From IMG/VR virus record IMGVR_UViG_3300009183_000426, positions 1-21,088 of that record: 21,088 nucleotides of DNA. One strand, 5' to 3'. A program made the translations under genes and the position numbers. The notes under the pieces were generated by a model. It had not been told where the DNA came from. It worked only from the letters and a program-made list of their open reading frames with translations, and made no database searches. The stretch's first letter is position 1; the number at the start of each line of letters is the position of its first letter. This document shows positions 791 through 19,891 of this stretch, piece by piece. Source of the DNA: a virus.

Positions 791-915
791 GCGCGCCATA
801 CGGATTAAGTCAATGCGAAGTCTGCGAGCAATATGTAAATAGCCTTTGCGATATGGCAGAACTTTGCGTAGAGTGTTGTAGTGATTGTCAAGAGAGAGGT
901 TTAGAGCATGACTAA
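787..915 (+). CDS. Small Cys-rich protein, 42 aa
   Basis: Seven cysteines in 42 residues: C10-x2-C13, C21, C27, C30-C31 and C34. The spacing fits a compact treble-clef or double-knuckle zinc fold. It starts in an ATGA overlap with the gene before it and overlaps the next gene by eight bases, so all are probably read from one message. No enzyme motif. The function is unknown, but together with the proteins on either side it forms a group of unusually Cys-dense peptides. Confidence 0.5.
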   Translation: MSAPYGLSQCEVCEQYVNSLCDMAELCVECCSDCQERGLEHD

Positions 916-1189
916 AGATGAAGTTAATGCGTGTAACTGTGACAAATGCGAGTGCCCTAAGCAAGATGATTACACAAGAGAAGGCGGTACTTGTGAGGAG
1001 TGCTTTAGCGGTTGCCAACCTACTGAGGGCGGTGACGAGTGCGATTGTACGGAAGTGTGCGGTTGGACTAAGCCCCATTATGTAACCGAAGGCTCTTGCC
1101 CTAACTGCGGAACTAATGTAAGTTTAGGTGAGGAGTCTATGATTGAGTTTGATTGCGAAACTCATGGAGAGATTAGTTGGTATAGATAA
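908..1189 (+). CDS. Cys-rich protein: metallothionein-like N-terminus plus zinc ribbon
   Basis: A 93-residue protein with 13 cysteines. Residues 9-16 form C-x-C-x2-C-x-C (CNCDKCEC), followed after 12 residues by C29-x2-C32-x3-C36. This order resembles bacterial metallothioneins of the SmtA/BmtA type, which sequester zinc or copper in thiolate clusters. A second Cys group (C45, C47, C51) and a C-terminal ribbon (C64-x2-C67 and C83-x2-H86) follow. The metallothionein match is by pattern only; a multi-zinc-ribbon binding protein is the main alternative. The start overlaps the previous gene by eight bases. Immediately after its TAA comes an ATG (1190) that opens a 10-codon frame leading to the next gene. 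Confidence 0.6.
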   Translation: MTKDEVNACNCDKCECPKQDDYTREGGTCEECFSGCQPTEGGDECDCTEVCGWTKPHYVTEGSCPNCGTNVSLGEESMIEFDCETHGEISWYR

Positions 1190-1222
1190 ATGAGAGATGA
1201 GAACAGAGGGGAAACAATCTAA
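1190..1222 (+). CDS. Possible 10-codon leader ORF before the ATT-started gene
   Basis: ATG follows directly on the stop of the preceding gene, and the frame ends at TAA 1220-1222, whose last base is the first base of an ATT codon that fits the start of the next gene. The leader contains the purine-rich GAGGGGA that would act as that gene's ribosome site. It may deliver ribosomes to the ATT codon by termination-reinitiation. It could also be chance. Confidence 0.3.
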   Translation: MRDENRGETI

Positions 1223-1641
1223 TTCAAACCTTCCTGCCCCTTCCCGACTTTAGAGAGACTGCGCTAGTCTTAGACAATAAAAGGCTAGGCAAGCAACGCG
1301 TAGAGGCTTATCAGATTATGAAAGTCTTGCGCGGAGAGACTAAAGGGTGGCGCAACCACCCTGCCGTTCTTATGTGGAGAGAGTATGAACCTGCGCTCTA
1401 TGAGTACGGGCGAATAGTTTGTGGCGAGTGGCGCAATAGAGGTTTTGTTGATAACCTATATAATAAGTTTCCCGTCGAGCAAATAGTAATACCTGCGTGG
1501 TTAGGGGATATGAGACTTCATACCTCTCACCAAGCAAACTTAGTAAGGAAGTTTCCCGAACACTATCGAGAACACTTCCCTGATGTAGATGAAACTATGC
1601 CCTATTTTTGGGTGTCTAACGAGAAGGAATACAATGACTAA
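1222..1641 (+). CDS. Pyrimidine-dimer DNA glycosylase-like protein (MSMEG_6728-like), apparent ATT start
   Basis: About 139 residues. The N-terminus, read from ATT, gives (M)QTFLPLPDF, then VLDNKRLGKQRVEAYQIM, GWRNHPAVLMW, YEYG and GFVDNLYNKF. As I recall, these blocks are typical of small proteins related to T4 endonuclease V (Pyr_excise) and of the actinobacterial MSMEG_6728 group, expected to act in repair of UV-damaged DNA. A conservative ATG start at 1318 would delete the LDxxRLGKQRVE block, the most conserved part. No ATG, GTG or TTG exists in frame between the stop at 1198-1200 and 1315. ATT 1222 lies nine bases after AGAGGGGA and overlaps the preceding stop as TAATT. The repair function is inferred from family resemblance, not from visible catalytic chemistry. 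Confidence 0.65.
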   Translation: MQTFLPLPDFRETALVLDNKRLGKQRVEAYQIMKVLRGETKGWRNHPAVLMWREYEPALYEYGRIVCGEWRNRGFVDNLYNKFPVEQIVIPAWLGDMRLHTSHQANLVRKFPEHYREHFPDVDETMPYFWVSNEKEYND

Positions 1642-1924
1642 AAAGGTAAACGTAGTATTTTACGCAGAAACAATTAAGAACTCAGCAAAGGGTGGCGCAT
1701 GGCTAACCACTATTAGAATTACTGATGAGGGTATGGATATTCCTAACGAAACCCTTACCGCAGCGTGGTCAAACGCTTCCGCAGCGAAGCGTTGGATCAA
1801 AGAAAAGGTACAAGAACTAACGCCACGCAAATCGTTAAAGTTAGTGGCTACAACGCAGAACTTAGACGCTAAAGGCAAGCCTTTAGCATGGGTAGGTCAA
1901 CTCGGATACAAGCGAGACGTGTAA
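1634..1924 (+). CDS. Hypothetical protein, 96 aa
   Basis: A small basic protein, MTKKVNVVFYAETI onward, with several predicted strands and a helix near residues 42-55 (WSNASAAKRWIKEKVQEL). The chosen ATG follows GAGAAGG and overlaps the previous gene by eight bases; the frame is open further upstream to 1589 but that start would lie deep in the previous gene. Its TAA overlaps the next ATG. No family recognised; the basic, strand-helix composition would allow a nucleic-acid-binding role, but nothing proves it. Confidence 0.6.
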   Translation: MTKKVNVVFYAETIKNSAKGGAWLTTIRITDEGMDIPNETLTAAWSNASAAKRWIKEKVQELTPRKSLKLVATTQNLDAKGKPLAWVGQLGYKRDV

Positions 1925-2274: not shown

Positions 2275-2306
2275 TAAGAAAGCCCCCCGATTGGGGGGCT
2301 TTCTTA
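2275..2306. terminator. Strong bidirectional intrinsic terminator
   Basis: A perfect 14-bp inverted repeat: TAAGAAAGCCCCCC, a 4-base loop GATT, then the exact complement. On the plus strand the GC stem is followed by CTTTCTTATTTA; on the minus strand by CTTTCTTAGTATC. It sits between converging gene clusters and touches the stop codon of the minus-strand oxygenase gene (2304-2306), so it probably ends both transcripts. Confidence 0.85.
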
Positions 2307-2888
2307 TTTACGGTTTGATAAATTATCTATTAAGAGTCCTGCTCTAGGGCTATCACACCATACCTCATGTGAGTTTTCAAGGGGTAAGTAGAGCAAGTCC
2401 CCTGGATTTAGCGTATAGGTAATGTCGTTATCTATTTTCCAAAAAGATGTACCTAGTATTTGCCAATAGAATATGTCATGAGGGTCGTGGTGGTCTGAAA
2501 CAAGCCTATTAGATAGAGAGACTCTTATACCTTGAAAATGCCAGTCGAGAGAGCAGTCATGCCCCATAACTTTATAGTAACCACAGGTAGTATCCTCTTG
2601 CTCATTGTTTAAACCGTATAGAAGTTCTGATACCCCTTTAAACTCTTTAAATATGTCAGAGGTTTGAGGGGCAAGCCAAAACTTGCTTTGTATTTGTACG
2701 TTACCGATTGATATGAAGTCATTATTATTATGCTGCTTTACCCGTTCATTTAAGTCATGATTTGGGGTAAGTGACTCTTTATATAAAAAGTTTAAAACGT
2801 CTTCCCACGTAATGCTTGGGGGCTGGTAGTTTTCAAATACAATACCGTGACTATTCTGCTTAGCCTCTTTAATTTTATCTAACATCAT
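2304..2888 (-). CDS. JmjC/cupin-type Fe(II), 2-oxoglutarate-dependent oxygenase
   Basis: A 194-residue protein whose C-terminal half carries a cupin metal site. An H-x-D motif lies at H133-H134-D135 in SDHHDPHDIFYWQILG, followed by SFWKI, the turn LNPGDLLYLPL (160-170) and the distal His H174 in ENSHEVW. This arrangement matches JmjC/cupin-8 proteins such as YcfD/RoxA-type ribosomal oxygenases, which hydroxylate protein side chains using Fe(II) and 2-oxoglutarate. The usual HTDPYDVFxxQxxGxKxW pattern aligns well. The substrate is unknown; a protein, a nucleotide or a free amino acid are all possible. It starts in an ATGA overlap with the ribonucleotide reductase gene, so the two are translated together, and it is the last gene of the minus-strand run, ending in the terminator. 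Confidence 0.65.
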   Translation of the reverse strand: MMLDKIKEAKQNSHGIVFENYQPPSITWEDVLNFLYKESLTPNHDLNERVKQHNNNDFISIGNVQIQSKFWLAPQTSDIFKEFKGVSELLYGLNNEQEDTTCGYYKVMGHDCSLDWHFQGIRVSLSNRLVSDHHDPHDIFYWQILGTSFWKIDNDITYTLNPGDLLYLPLENSHEVWCDSPRAGLLIDNLSNRK

Positions 2889-5019: not shown

Positions 5020-6477
5020 CTACTCTTCTTCTATGATTTCACGTATGATTTGCGTAGTCTGCTCCTCATTTAGCCCATCATTTGGTAACTCTTTGAGCAC
5101 GTTTGCGCGGTCTCCGAAGATGGAACTTAGCACACCTGCGGAGCCTTGTCGCTCTACGGTCATGCGAATAAACTCACGTGAGTCGTCCAATTCTTTGGTC
5201 GTTTTGATCAATTTAAATAGGCGGTCAATCTCCTGAGAAACATTAGGATCAGCGTAGCCACCGCTCATTTCTTCAGCAAAACGCATGAAAGCAACGCGTT
5301 GGCCCTGCATTTCTATAATTGAATTGATCAATGCCTTTAGTTGATCTTTAGTTTTAACTTCGATGGGCAGCTTAAATGCGCATACAGATTGAGGCTTAAA
5401 AGCAGGGCAGTTGGTTGCTACAAAACATGAGTCACATGACCGTAGTGAGGTGCTTTGAGAGTGTACAGTTTGTACATCTTGGATGAGCCCGTTCTCGTCT
5501 ACGGTGCTAGAAATCTCGTAGCCGAACACAGGAAGATTGCCCATTTCTTCAGGTTCACGGGGCAAAAGTTTCCGCATCCCAACCCCCTTGTTATCAATAC
5601 CAGGTAGGGGTGTTTCCGCGTTTGATACTACTTCTAGTTCATCGCTGTTATCATATAAGAAGCCCTCATCAGTAGTCACGCCGTTCACCTTTCGTTCAAA
5701 TTGGCCGTATGACCACACTGCTAATCGGCAGACTTCCTTAGGGTCGTCTTCCAAAATCTTGTCTATATCAAGCCCAGCCTTTATATATACGTTCCGATAC
5801 CTAGACCTAGCTTGATCCTTCATACGCTTTGGGTAGCGCATCAATTTCATGCCATCCCATACGATAGTCTCTCCGTGCATCATAGGGCTAAGCCAAGACA
5901 TAGTGCTAGCCGATTCAATACTTACTTGGCGTAGGTTATCTGGTTTAGCGCAGCCTATCGCATGAAAGCGTGTGCCATTGTTTCGAACATGTGTTCGAGT
6001 AACTACGGCAAGCTGGGTCTCTTCCTCAATGGCGTAGCCAGGAATTGCTATATCTAAATAGGTATCTACCATTAGATTCAAGCCTTTTAATCCAGAAGCT
6101 GGATCCCAGACTGGCTGGAACTTGCCTGGTGGCACCTCCGACCAAGCTGTCTTTCTTTGTAGCTCAACAAAGGCGGGGTCTACTTCGCTAATCTCATTGA
6201 AAGTAGTTAAACGGTCTATGTTATGAGCAATAAAGTCTTCGTATTCGGCGGCAAAAACTGCGAGCTCGTCTGGGCCCAGAGATGTGCCTTTTGGGATGCC
6301 AGGGTACACATAAATAGAAAAATCATCATTAAAATAGTTATCTAATAGGTAATCTTTGTTTTTAGGTAAGCCCCGCTCCCGCAGCCGCCAGAAGCTCACG
6401 CCTACCTGAGTGGCTGAAGTTGTTTCTAATAGAGTACGGTTGCTGGGAACCTCTGCCCCTAGATATATCAGCTTCAT
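5020..6477 (-). CDS. TIM-barrel protein resembling TGT/DpdA transglycosylases, with C-terminal Cys-cluster domain
   Basis: A 485-residue protein. Residues 1-240 show alternating strands and helices of a TIM barrel: VYPG (57-60), FNEIS (93-97), FQPVWD (120-125), LDIAIPG (141-147), RFHAIGCAKP (170-179), then SASTMSWLS (189-197). The last blocks resemble the HalGxxxP and SxDSxSW positions of tRNA-guanine transglycosylases and their DNA-acting DpdA relatives, which swap guanine for 7-deazaguanines. I could not identify the catalytic Asp pair with confidence. Residues 345-460 form a second domain with C348-x2-C351-x5-C357-x8-C366, then a helical FMRFAEEM-containing part. It starts in an ATGA overlap with the HAD-like gene. 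No preQ0-synthesis genes are in the window. A different barrel enzyme remains possible. Confidence 0.45.
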   Translation of the reverse strand: MKLIYLGAEVPSNRTLLETTSATQVGVSFWRLRERGLPKNKDYLLDNYFNDDFSIYVYPGIPKGTSLGPDELAVFAAEYEDFIAHNIDRLTTFNEISEVDPAFVELQRKTAWSEVPPGKFQPVWDPASGLKGLNLMVDTYLDIAIPGYAIEEETQLAVVTRTHVRNNGTRFHAIGCAKPDNLRQVSIESASTMSWLSPMMHGETIVWDGMKLMRYPKRMKDQARSRYRNVYIKAGLDIDKILEDDPKEVCRLAVWSYGQFERKVNGVTTDEGFLYDNSDELEVVSNAETPLPGIDNKGVGMRKLLPREPEEMGNLPVFGYEISSTVDENGLIQDVQTVHSQSTSLRSCDSCFVATNCPAFKPQSVCAFKLPIEVKTKDQLKALINSIIEMQGQRVAFMRFAEEMSGGYADPNVSQEIDRLFKLIKTTKELDDSREFIRMTVERQGSAGVLSSIFGDRANVLKELPNDGLNEEQTTQIIREIIEEE

Positions 6478-9858: not shown

Positions 9859-10250
9859 TAAACTGCTCCTCCTAGAGTATTTCGACTGCTTGATTGAGTG
9901 CTGTTTGGCGTATTGCTAAAGTCAGACTCAACGCGCTGAGCGGTAGGTGCGGTACGCGGTAGGTCAATAATATCCTCAATACCAATTTCGTTTTCTGTAA
10001 ACCCATATCTGGCTGGGAATAGTTTAATCTGAGGTAGCGGTGGGCGGACATATTCTTGAATCTCAGCCGCGCTCATGGTAAATGCGGCTAATGATTGGCT
10101 TAATAAACGCTCTTGATTAGAAGCAAATGGGCCAATGTAAGCCTGTGGTGGAAAAGCAGCCTCTTCTGGGGTAATGACTCCAGCGCGGTCTTTATCCCAC
10201 GGCTTATGGCCGTAGACGCCTCCTGAATATAAATTTGCTCCGTTTGCCAT
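9858..10250 (-). CDS. Hypothetical protein, 130 aa
   Basis: Starts MANGANLYSGGVYGHKPW; GGAAATAAC precedes the ATG. It has a folded-looking centre (residues 33-90, rich in Phe/Pro/Leu) and a Ser/Thr/Asn-rich C-terminal tail. No family recognised. In many phages such short Gly/Pro-rich proteins of a coupled block are minor virion or morphogenesis components, but no recognised structural gene is present here to support that. Confidence 0.55.
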   Translation of the reverse strand: MANGANLYSGGVYGHKPWDKDRAGVITPEEAAFPPQAYIGPFASNQERLLSQSLAAFTMSAAEIQEYVRPPLPQIKLFPARYGFTENEIGIEDIIDLPRTAPTAQRVESDFSNTPNSTQSSSRNTLGGAV

Positions 10251-10251
10251 G

Positions 10252-10785
10252 TTATTTCCAAGCTGGGCGCATACGCGCCATCTGGTCTACACGTTGCTTA
10301 TCTAATGACATTGGTGATGTGCTGCGCATATTAGCCTTACCATCATTTGGTAAGTGTGGGGCAGGCGCAGCCATTGCGTTTTCTACGTTACGTTTTGATA
10401 AATATACGTTGCCAATTCGTGAGGCTCTCATTTGACGCGCAATACCGCGAGTGTTTTCTAAACCCTCTGGGTAATAATAATCTGATTGATCAATACGCTC
10501 ACCGCGGTGAACACCACGCTGGTAGGATCGTTGACCGACTCGTGTTTTTAAACTGTTCATAACGGTGTCTGAGGTGCTTGAAGGGCGGCCTCTATCGTCA
10601 CGACGGGATCTAATAGTACCTAAGTATCCATCTGGATATTCTGCTTGCGGTGCGCGTCCAACACCAAGGCGTAAGAAATCGAGTTCTGAACGAGCAACAG
10701 GAGTACCGCCTCCACCATAGTTGGTGTAGGTTCCTGCCATACCCGCAGCGCCGAGGCTCTGCGTATTTTGATGTGGGGCGCCCAT
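10252..10785 (-). CDS. Hypothetical Gly/Arg-rich protein, 177 aa
   Basis: A basic protein with a Gly-rich N-terminus (YTNYGGGGTP at 20-29), many Arg residues, and motifs such as RSRRDDRGRPS and QSDYYYPEG. Low sequence complexity and high charge suggest a disordered, possibly nucleic-acid-binding protein. The ribosome site is weak, and it follows the phosphoesterase gene by only four bases, so its translation may depend on that of the upstream gene. No family recognised. Confidence 0.55.
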   Translation of the reverse strand: MGAPHQNTQSLGAAGMAGTYTNYGGGGTPVARSELDFLRLGVGRAPQAEYPDGYLGTIRSRRDDRGRPSSTSDTVMNSLKTRVGQRSYQRGVHRGERIDQSDYYYPEGLENTRGIARQMRASRIGNVYLSKRNVENAMAAPAPHLPNDGKANMRSTSPMSLDKQRVDQMARMRPAWK

Positions 10786-15409: not shown

Positions 15410-15730
15410 TCACGATTTTTTAGTTTCTACCCAATCCTTAAATGAAATTCCCGCTTTAGTTGCTTTACGCTTTAACGAGTTTCGTTCACGATGGCTCATG
15501 CCACCCCAGATACCGTGCTGCTCTTCCATTTTATCTGCGTACAGTAAACAATCTTTACGCACAGGGCATTCTGGTAAACCATCTTTGCCATAGCATACGG
15601 CTTTAGAGACCTGTGCTATTGATTGGTATTTAGATTTGTCTCTTGGGGGGTACCAGAGTTCGGTATCCATCCCTCTACATTTAGCTTTGTGTCGCCAGCT
15701 TTCATTGTGTCCAAGATCTGATTCGTACAA
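15410..15730 (-). CDS. WhiB-family Fe-S transcription regulator (TTG start)
   Basis: A 106-residue protein with the WhiB Cys set C18, C46, C55 and C61, tryptophan W12, and GIWGGMSHRER (73-83), the turn and basic region that contact sigma factor and DNA. The central spacing is unusual: C46-x8-C55 in place of C-x2-C, because of an insertion (YGKDGLPE). The start is TTG, supported by CAGGAG a few bases upstream and by the need to include W12 and C18. It overlaps the upstream nuclease gene by 115 bases. WhiB proteins carry a 4Fe-4S cluster sensing redox or NO; phage copies can alter host transcription. This is the best host marker in the window. Confidence 0.88.
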   Translation of the reverse strand: MYESDLGHNESWRHKAKCRGMDTELWYPPRDKSKYQSIAQVSKAVCYGKDGLPECPVRKDCLLYADKMEEQHGIWGGMSHRERNSLKRKATKAGISFKDWVETKKS

Positions 15731-17893: not shown

Positions 17894-17927
17894 GTTTAAC
17901 CCATTTCTTTTCTAGTTGTTTACTCAT
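17880..17927 (-). CDS. Possible 15-codon coupling ORF after DNA polymerase
   Basis: ATG overlaps the polymerase stop (ATGA) and is preceded by GAGAGG; it encodes MSKQLEKKWVKHGVV then TAA, ending just inside the next gene. Good ribosome site and overlap on both sides suggest it carries ribosomes across to the poorly initiated 147-aa gene. The peptide itself may have no function. Confidence 0.35.
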   Translation of the reverse strand: MSKQLEKKWVKHGVV

Positions 17928-19891
17928 TTTGCCTCTCCCCACTTGGTAACTACTTTAATATCTGCTACTAAAGGAATGGGTAGAATCTTAATTTCTTCCA
18001 TAGCCTCACGGATAGCGCTGATTGTTTGGTCTACCAGATGGTCTGGGGTTAACGTTACAAGCTCGTCGTGCACTGTAAGGATCAATTTAGCACCTTCTGG
18101 GATCATCTGATGAGCACGCACCATAGCAACTTTAATAATGTCAGCAGCCGAGCCTTGAATCCTTGTGTTAAACGCTTGACGCTCAGAGCTAGACCTAAAG
18201 CTGTGGACTTTAGACGAAATATCAGGAAGATAGCGTCTACGCTTTAAAATTGTAGTAACGTACCCTTTATTACGAGATAGGCCAATAACCTTAGCGCGGT
18301 AGGTGCTAACAGCCGCAAATTTATCAGAAAAGTCAGTCAAAAGCTTTTTTGCCTCATTGACCGAGCACCCAATAGAACGTGCGATTTTGTCAGGGCCTAC
18401 GCCGTAAGCCATAGCAAGCACAAGAACTTTACCTGCTTTACGGTCTACCCCCATCGTATCTCCTACCGTAGTGTAAATATCCCCACCATCTAGATAGTTT
18501 TTCATCATAATTGGGTCTTCTGACATTGCCGCAATTACGCGAGGCTCAATCTGTGAGTAGTCGGCTACTACCAATTTGTACCCCTCAGGGGCTGTAAATA
18601 AATTACGGATAGAGCGCCCGTGCGCAGTGTGCGGAGCAGGTACATTTTGAAGGTTAGGGTTACGGCTAGAAAAACGACCAGTCTCTGCCCCCCATTGAAC
18701 AAAGTCACCGTAGATGCGGCTATTAACTAACATAGACTCTCGGGTTTCAACTTTTGATTTACCGCCCACGGTTTTAGTTACCTCACCGCCTAAATACGGA
18801 ATTACGTACGTACTCATCAACTTATTTAAATCTGAATAAGTTAAAAGGGCGTTTACCAACTCATCTTTTTCTCGATAAGGTTCTAACGCCTCAGCAGATA
18901 CGGAATAGTCTTTGTAGTCAAGTTCAGTCTCTGCTTTTTGTAACCCTTTACCAGTAAGGAGTTGTGGCCGTAACCCTCGACAACCTTCGTCGCGAGGCCC
19001 GTATAAAATGTATTGTTTTTCATTATTTGAATTAATATTAAACGGCTGACCAGCAATGCGATAAATATTAGATCTAACCTCTTCGATCTCAAGCACTAGC
19101 TTGTCATGAAGAATCTGTAATTCATTTGTATCAATGGGTGCGCCAGTCAATTTCATATCGCAAAGCACACGAAGAACATCCATCTCCAACTTCATAACGC
19201 CTTCAACATCAGCAGCCGCCAACTTTGGAGCAATAGACTTCCAAAGAATAAACGTGTATTTAGCGTCTAAGTAAGAGTATTTAGCTACCTCGCTAAACGA
19301 ATAAAGCTCAACTTGATGGCCAATGCCCTTTTCCATGCTGTAGCCCAGCTCTCGCTGTAAGCAATCGTCTAAACCTAACTTGCCTTTGTTCTTGTTATCA
19401 TATAAAAAAGAAGCCATTAGCGTATCAAAATAAGGCCCTAGAGGCACACTACCTCCGTAGTACTTTGCTACAGAACTAAGATCAAATACTAAGTTGTGGC
19501 CTATAGTTAATATGCTGTCGTTAAACATTAAAGGCTTAATTGCTTTAAATACTTCTGCTGGGAACAACTGTGTAGGGGCCTCATCAAACACTTTGATTGC
19601 TTTTTTCTTATCACGAGAGTAGTCCAACTCTCGGGCAGGTAATCCCGCAGCCACTCGTTTTTCACCTTGTCCAGTTAACGGAAAAGATTCAGAAACAAAC
19701 TCCCCGTGCGGGTGCCCCATAGGAATTACATCGCCTCTGCCATGAGTAGCAAAGCTAATCCAAAGAACTTCGTTTACAGCAGGAGTGCCGCGATGATCTC
19801 CAACGGTTTCCACGTCAAATGCAAACGAGTCTTGCTTAAGATAGTAATTAACCATCTCGTTTAACTGTTCTTTTGTTGTAATAATATTCAA
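17924..19891 (-). CDS. polA: DNA polymerase, family A, with 3'-5' exonuclease (TTG start)
   Basis: A 655-residue replicative polymerase. The exonuclease domain has D26 and E28 (FDVETVG), HNLVFD (132-137) and Y205-x3-D209. The polymerase has motif A DYSQIEPR (444-451), motif B R484KAGK488...Y496G, and motif C HDE (608-610). There is no 5' nuclease domain, the usual phage form. Two departures from E. coli Pol I: the residue aligned with Phe762 is Leu492, and Leu711 in motif A is Pro450. The start is TTG, with AAGGGGTG upstream. It ends in an ATGA overlap with the coupling ORF. Together with the ssDNA-binding and RecA-like proteins it forms the replication core. Confidence 0.95.
   Translation of the reverse strand: MNIITTKEQLNEMVNYYLKQDSFAFDVETVGDHRGTPAVNEVLWISFATHGRGDVIPMGHPHGEFVSESFPLTGQGEKRVAAGLPARELDYSRDKKKAIKVFDEAPTQLFPAEVFKAIKPLMFNDSILTIGHNLVFDLSSVAKYYGGSVPLGPYFDTLMASFLYDNKNKGKLGLDDCLQRELGYSMEKGIGHQVELYSFSEVAKYSYLDAKYTFILWKSIAPKLAAADVEGVMKLEMDVLRVLCDMKLTGAPIDTNELQILHDKLVLEIEEVRSNIYRIAGQPFNINSNNEKQYILYGPRDEGCRGLRPQLLTGKGLQKAETELDYKDYSVSAEALEPYREKDELVNALLTYSDLNKLMSTYVIPYLGGEVTKTVGGKSKVETRESMLVNSRIYGDFVQWGAETGRFSSRNPNLQNVPAPHTAHGRSIRNLFTAPEGYKLVVADYSQIEPRVIAAMSEDPIMMKNYLDGGDIYTTVGDTMGVDRKAGKVLVLAMAYGVGPDKIARSIGCSVNEAKKLLTDFSDKFAAVSTYRAKVIGLSRNKGYVTTILKRRRYLPDISSKVHSFRSSSERQAFNTRIQGSAADIIKVAMVRAHQMIPEGAKLILTVHDELVTLTPDHLVDQTISAIREAMEEIKILPIPLVADIKVVTKWGEAK

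Follow-up and report, generated by a model that had tools for sequence, protein, structure and literature searches.

The Pyr_excise-like gene of the phage sequence examined here very probably begins translation at an ATT codon at position 1222, and the ATT start looks like a recurrent feature of the viral family rather than an error. The window, that is, the whole stretch of DNA analysed, is the 21,088-base virus record IMGVR_UViG_3300009183_000426 of IMG/VR (positions 1 to 21,088). Profile matches elsewhere in the window identified WhiB, RecA, DNA polymerase A and a B12-dependent ribonucleotide reductase; the WhiB match points to an actinobacterial host, and the carrier of the ATT gene would thus be a phage of an actinobacterium. 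The features of the locus are as follows.

1222 to 1641, plus strand: MSMEG_6728 / Pyr_excise (T4 endonuclease V-like) gene of 139 codons plus stop, assigned from NF038085, PF03013 and a fold match.
1222 to 1224, plus strand: probable ATT start codon, placed by profile position 1 and by the residue-1 codon in homologues.
1205 to 1212, plus strand: Shine-Dalgarno site AGAGGGGA, 9 nt before the ATT, with a computed duplex energy of -8.1 kcal/mol.
1198 to 1200, plus strand: in-frame stop TGA bounding the reading frame on its 5' side, read from the sequence.
1225 to 1317, plus strand: the 31 N-terminal codons before the first ATG, under purifying selection according to the codon differences against contig L003.
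1303 to 1305, plus strand: codon of Glu28, the candidate catalytic glutamate, invariant in members with the RLGKQR motif.
1318 to 1320, plus strand: first in-frame ATG, the expected choice of a gene caller and not the start, judging from the frame, the homologues and the coding constraint.
1190 to 1222, plus strand: 10-codon leader ORF (ATG 1190, TAA 1220-1222) overlapping the ATT at 1222 by one base; not conserved and of doubtful role.
908 to 1189, plus strand: preceding ORF of 93 aa, present in the sister phage and not in the fetched stretches of the other syntenic phages.
1634 to 1924, plus strand: following gene, conserved in the phage group, with its ATG at 1634 inside the end of the glycosylase gene.

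The ATG at 1318 is the first canonical start in the frame of the gene: direct reading of the codons at 1201-1317 gave zero ATG, GTG or TTG, as the original prediction had stated for the interval from the stop at 1198 to codon 1315. A gene that truly starts at 1318, N-terminally truncated or decayed, is nevertheless highly improbable. Such a start would delete the most conserved block of the protein, QTFLPLPDF...LDNKRLGKQRVE, which was found at 1225-1305, 5' of the ATG as predicted, with QTFLPLPDF directly after the ATT at 1222-1224. The 31 codons preceding the ATG are under purifying selection, as indicated by the 17 synonymous versus 3 non-synonymous differences between the window and L003, with other pairs being similar. 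In addition, the alignment of homologues, which had been proposed as a check, placed the start of the relatives at the residue equivalent to 1222 and not to 1318, and position 1 of the NF038085 profile falls on codon 1222. In annotated isolate phages, the gene start was the residue equivalent to 1222 in 9 of the 11 annotated cases checked, the other two having an N-terminus without close alignment. The start at 1318 is therefore contradicted by the homologues, and the predicted start at ATT 1222, nine bases from the end of AGAGGGGA, is borne out by them.

An error of sequencing or assembly at 1224, with an ATG read as ATT, had been named in advance as a possible refutation, and a single base change would indeed give TAATG. 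However, the identical ATT is present in the sister phage (contig L002), an independent contig that is 93-96% identical overall (approximately 4-7% of bases differ), in syntenic phages with 72-80% protein identity (L003 at 80% and L005-L007 at 72%) and in further lineages, which rules out the error and leaves it with practically no probability. Among the 34 viral relatives to which these belong, residue 1 is encoded by GTG in L008-L010 and by ATG in L004, and the more distant members have one or the other of these two codons.

The codon at this position was further surveyed in larger collections. A scan of IMG/VR for any DTN codon before QTFLP[LF]PD[FY] recovered 41 contigs (ATG 27, GTG 7, ATT 7 and nothing else), while the 80 nearest relatives, scanned blind to the start codon, carried ATG in 66, GTG in 9, ATT in 3 and ATC in 2, again with nothing else. 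When all twelve NTA, NTC and NTT codons were searched for in family members, 18 ATT contigs (a count that includes near-identical contigs), 2 ATC contigs and 2 truncated ATA copies were obtained, so that ATT and ATC are the only intact non-NTG codons at residue 1 among the IMG/VR family members. The relaxed ATT scan selects for ATT, and usable frequencies come only from the 41-contig DTN scan and the 80-relative sample. This spectrum fits a start codon, because further codons would be expected at an internal residue. The two ATA copies (L446:6424 and L447:1793) read ATA-IQTFLPYSDFRKS followed by a stop, that is, a family member truncated after 13 codons. Unlike ATT and ATC, TTG was absent as a residue-1 start in the viral contigs (0 of 41 and 0 of 80), yet the Shine-Dalgarno-linked starts of the remaining genes on these contigs include TTG roughly as often as GTG.

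Phylogenetic analyses suggested that the residue-1 codon is labile. The tree of 13 proteins has the topology ((window ATT, L003 ATT), (L004 ATG, (L009 GTG, (L005 ATT, L007 ATT)))), which indicates that the codon changes within the phage group. In the family tree of 93 proteins, nine changes of the ATT label are required, and well-supported branches force at least four of them; thus, ATT appears to have been gained or lost several times in the viral family. Support in the 33-protein tree of the nearest relatives was too poor to decide whether ATT is ancestral.

The original prediction also drew attention to a 10-codon leader that shares base 1222 with the ATT in a TAATT overlap. The leader is present in the window as described; coupling through it as a general mechanism did not hold, and the leader was rejected as a general feature, since neither leader nor overlap is conserved in relatives; the two therefore do not define the start. 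Most ATT relatives have no 10-codon leader and no stop overlapping the ATT, and instead possess a well-spaced Shine-Dalgarno site. It is conceivable that in the window phage a ribosome that terminates on the TAA of the leader (1220-1222) moves back one base and reinitiates at the ATT, such that coupling, and not the Shine-Dalgarno site, does the work. The leader and TAATT of the window and its sister, the rather distant spacing of the Shine-Dalgarno site in the window and the TAATT of L220 are compatible with such reinitiation; however, the TAATT frame of L220 is without a start codon, and together with the absence of both elements from most ATT relatives this makes the proposal unlikely. A +1 frameshift at ATC TAA, joining the leader to the gene in an N-terminally extended protein, is very improbable even though the leader frame is +1-compatible with that of the gene. 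In six relatives (L003, L007, L214, L217, L220 and L221), each of the three frames is closed by a stop a short distance 5' of the ATT, and the interval contains neither ATG nor GTG nor TTG; a leader frameshift thus has nowhere to begin there, and initiation must be non-canonical. The homologues show no N-terminal extension, and with additional residues in front of it the presumed catalytic amine would be buried. The frameshift was rejected on these grounds and on the closed frames in several relatives.

Translation at the ATT would use initiator fMet-tRNA, with the Shine-Dalgarno site at 1205-1212 directing the ribosome. The computed duplex before ATT has a median energy of -8.2 kcal/mol, with 14 of 15 below -6, versus a median of -4.0 kcal/mol and 35% below -6 before ATG (Mann-Whitney p 0.001, an optimistic value because related sequences are not independent). 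L217 (ATT) and L443 (ATC) are without a recognisable Shine-Dalgarno site, and in L039, L076 and L211 a canonical codon lies 9-15 nt upstream of residue 1. A special phage-borne initiator tRNA was not found in the fetched stretches, where the only tRNAs were those for Asn, Gly and Gln, in contigs L005, L007 and L009.

By profile and model, the gene product is predicted to be a small DNA glycosylase/lyase that resembles T4 endonuclease V and belongs to the MSMEG_6728 family. It scored 159.8 bits against NCBIfam NF038085 (curated cut-off 100) and 86.5 bits against PF03013, Pyr_excise (gathering threshold 23). In an AlphaFold model built from eight viral homologues (mean pLDDT 91.5), the best structural match was T4 endonuclease V (denV; 1eni/2end) with Z 9.2 over 102-103 residues and an rmsd of 3.3-3.5, the next entry reaching only Z 3.4. 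The match covers model residues 1-116 at about 13-15% identity, and model residue 1 pairs with residue 2 of T4 endonuclease V, so that the mature N-terminal residue of the latter superposes on residue 1. Foldseek alone gave no match to the model at E<=0.001 and did not find T4 endonuclease V, and the fold assignment accordingly rests on the structural alignment plus Pfam. Direct profile comparison with the T4 endonuclease V sequence, which agrees with PDB 2end over its full length, gave no match; a PDB sequence search with the family profile returned nothing relevant, no PHROGs family matched the MSMEG_6728-like protein, and literature searches gave nothing direct on MSMEG_6728. Glu28 is invariant in 182 of 182 viral and 112 of 112 cellular members with the RLGKQR motif, and it is a candidate for the catalytic glutamate.

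This similarity offers a possible reason for the unusual codon. In T4 endonuclease V, the nucleophile is the alpha-amine of the N-terminal residue, exposed after Met removal (PMC3285167). By analogy, the mature N-terminal amine of the phage protein may be the catalytic nucleophile, in which case the N-terminus could be neither lengthened nor shortened; with the start position fixed by chemistry, variation would fall on the codon. A weakened start codon might then be tolerated, or might be favoured because it limits the amount of enzyme, and the Shine-Dalgarno site would compensate for the weak codon instead of its replacement by a neighbouring ATG. We regard such a locked N-terminus as a plausible reason, to which we give a little under half of our credence, on the basis of knowledge of the family and of the similarity in fold, whose Z of 9.2 is that of a helical protein. 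The T4 enzyme starts Met-Thr and loses its Met, whereas the window protein starts Met-Gln. Glutamine at residue 2 should prevent Met removal by methionine aminopeptidase, and the Met-Gln protein should thus probably keep its Met. In L223 (298-303), the start lies one codon earlier, as ATG GTT, giving Met-Val-Asn-Thr-Phe-Leu-Pro; removal of Met before Val would restore the common mature N-terminal position, a suggestive exception.

Alternatively, the same start may reflect only tolerated drift, with no tie to catalysis or regulation and with the Shine-Dalgarno site keeping expression sufficient. This is a real possibility, though we lean against it: close relatives switch between ATT, ATG and GTG, as drift would allow, but other genes and cellular members do not show the ATT start. 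Of 405 codons placed behind a strong Shine-Dalgarno site in the remaining ORFs of the viral contigs, 3 were ATT, the same as for codons unable to start, so that ATT starts are not above background in other genes of the same contigs. Neither was there a sign of general ATT use by the phage group, as the conserved genes displayed from syntenic phages start with ATG, GTG or TTG. Weak starts do occur elsewhere in the group, but not ATT; the DNA polymerase A (19889-19891) and WhiB (15728-15730) genes, both on the minus strand, have a TTG start that is kept in most syntenic relatives. ATT is likewise not seen in those cellular members of NF038085 / PF03013, the family to which the window protein belongs, that carry the searched motif: across 84,980 cellular species, the tested motif was never found after ATT, ATC or ATA, whereas at least 118 stretches carried it after ATG or GTG, the ATG and GTG totals from the scans being lower bounds.

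An ATT start should give weak initiation that is sensitive to IF3. The mismatched AUU/CAU pair is disfavoured by IF3, which also inhibits initiation at non-canonical codons (PMC10158994, PMC2268962). A more speculative and rather doubtful proposal is that ATT and ATC are selected as weak, IF3-sensing starts, adopted repeatedly by phages together with a strong Shine-Dalgarno site, which would keep a DNA-cutting repair enzyme scarce until IF3 or initiation fidelity falls during infection or DNA damage, with the fixed N-terminus forcing the change onto the codon. In E. coli, IF3 feeds back on the AUU start of infC, the gene that encodes it (PMC2268962), and in Streptomyces the GTC start of sigR is used for IF3 repression (PMC5472188). 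The sigR gene resembles the phage gene in its non-canonical start, actinobacterial setting, strong ribosome-binding site and omission by gene callers (PMC5472188); its GTC start was experimentally tested, while the ATT of the phage gene is known here from sequence.

AUU is known as the start of only a few bacterial genes. Examples are infC, encoding IF3, and pcnB of E. coli, in which the AUU initiation codon likewise stands at a conserved position. As for an infC-type AUU, we found in the phage gene an AUU at the conserved N-terminus, no canonical alternative and retention in relatives. Whereas infC and pcnB are host genes, the present case concerns a family of phage genes for DNA repair, in which some relatives have AUU and others do not, and no phage gene with an AUU start was reported in the open literature searched. 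The recurrence of AUU and AUC at one fixed residue in distant phages may provide a natural series for the study of non-canonical initiation, Shine-Dalgarno compensation and IF3 control. A systematic annotation error is implied as well, because a caller restricted to ATG, GTG and TTG would start the gene 32 codons late and lose the presumed catalytic N-terminus.

The comparison with the sister phage also revealed differences elsewhere in the window. An ORF of 194 aa at 2304-2888 (minus strand) weakly matches JmjC_2 (cupin-like). The sister phage (L199) lacks this ORF, and approximately 2314-2888 is skipped in its alignment, which suggests that a gene was cleanly gained or lost. Conversely, the sister carries about 900 extra bases just downstream of polA (window 17909-17911) and about 430 extra bases near 10240 (window 10232-10253). 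In the window, the ORF at 5020-6477 (minus strand) matched PHROG 887, a queuine tRNA-ribosyltransferase, and its product is possibly a 7-deazaguanine DNA-modification enzyme.
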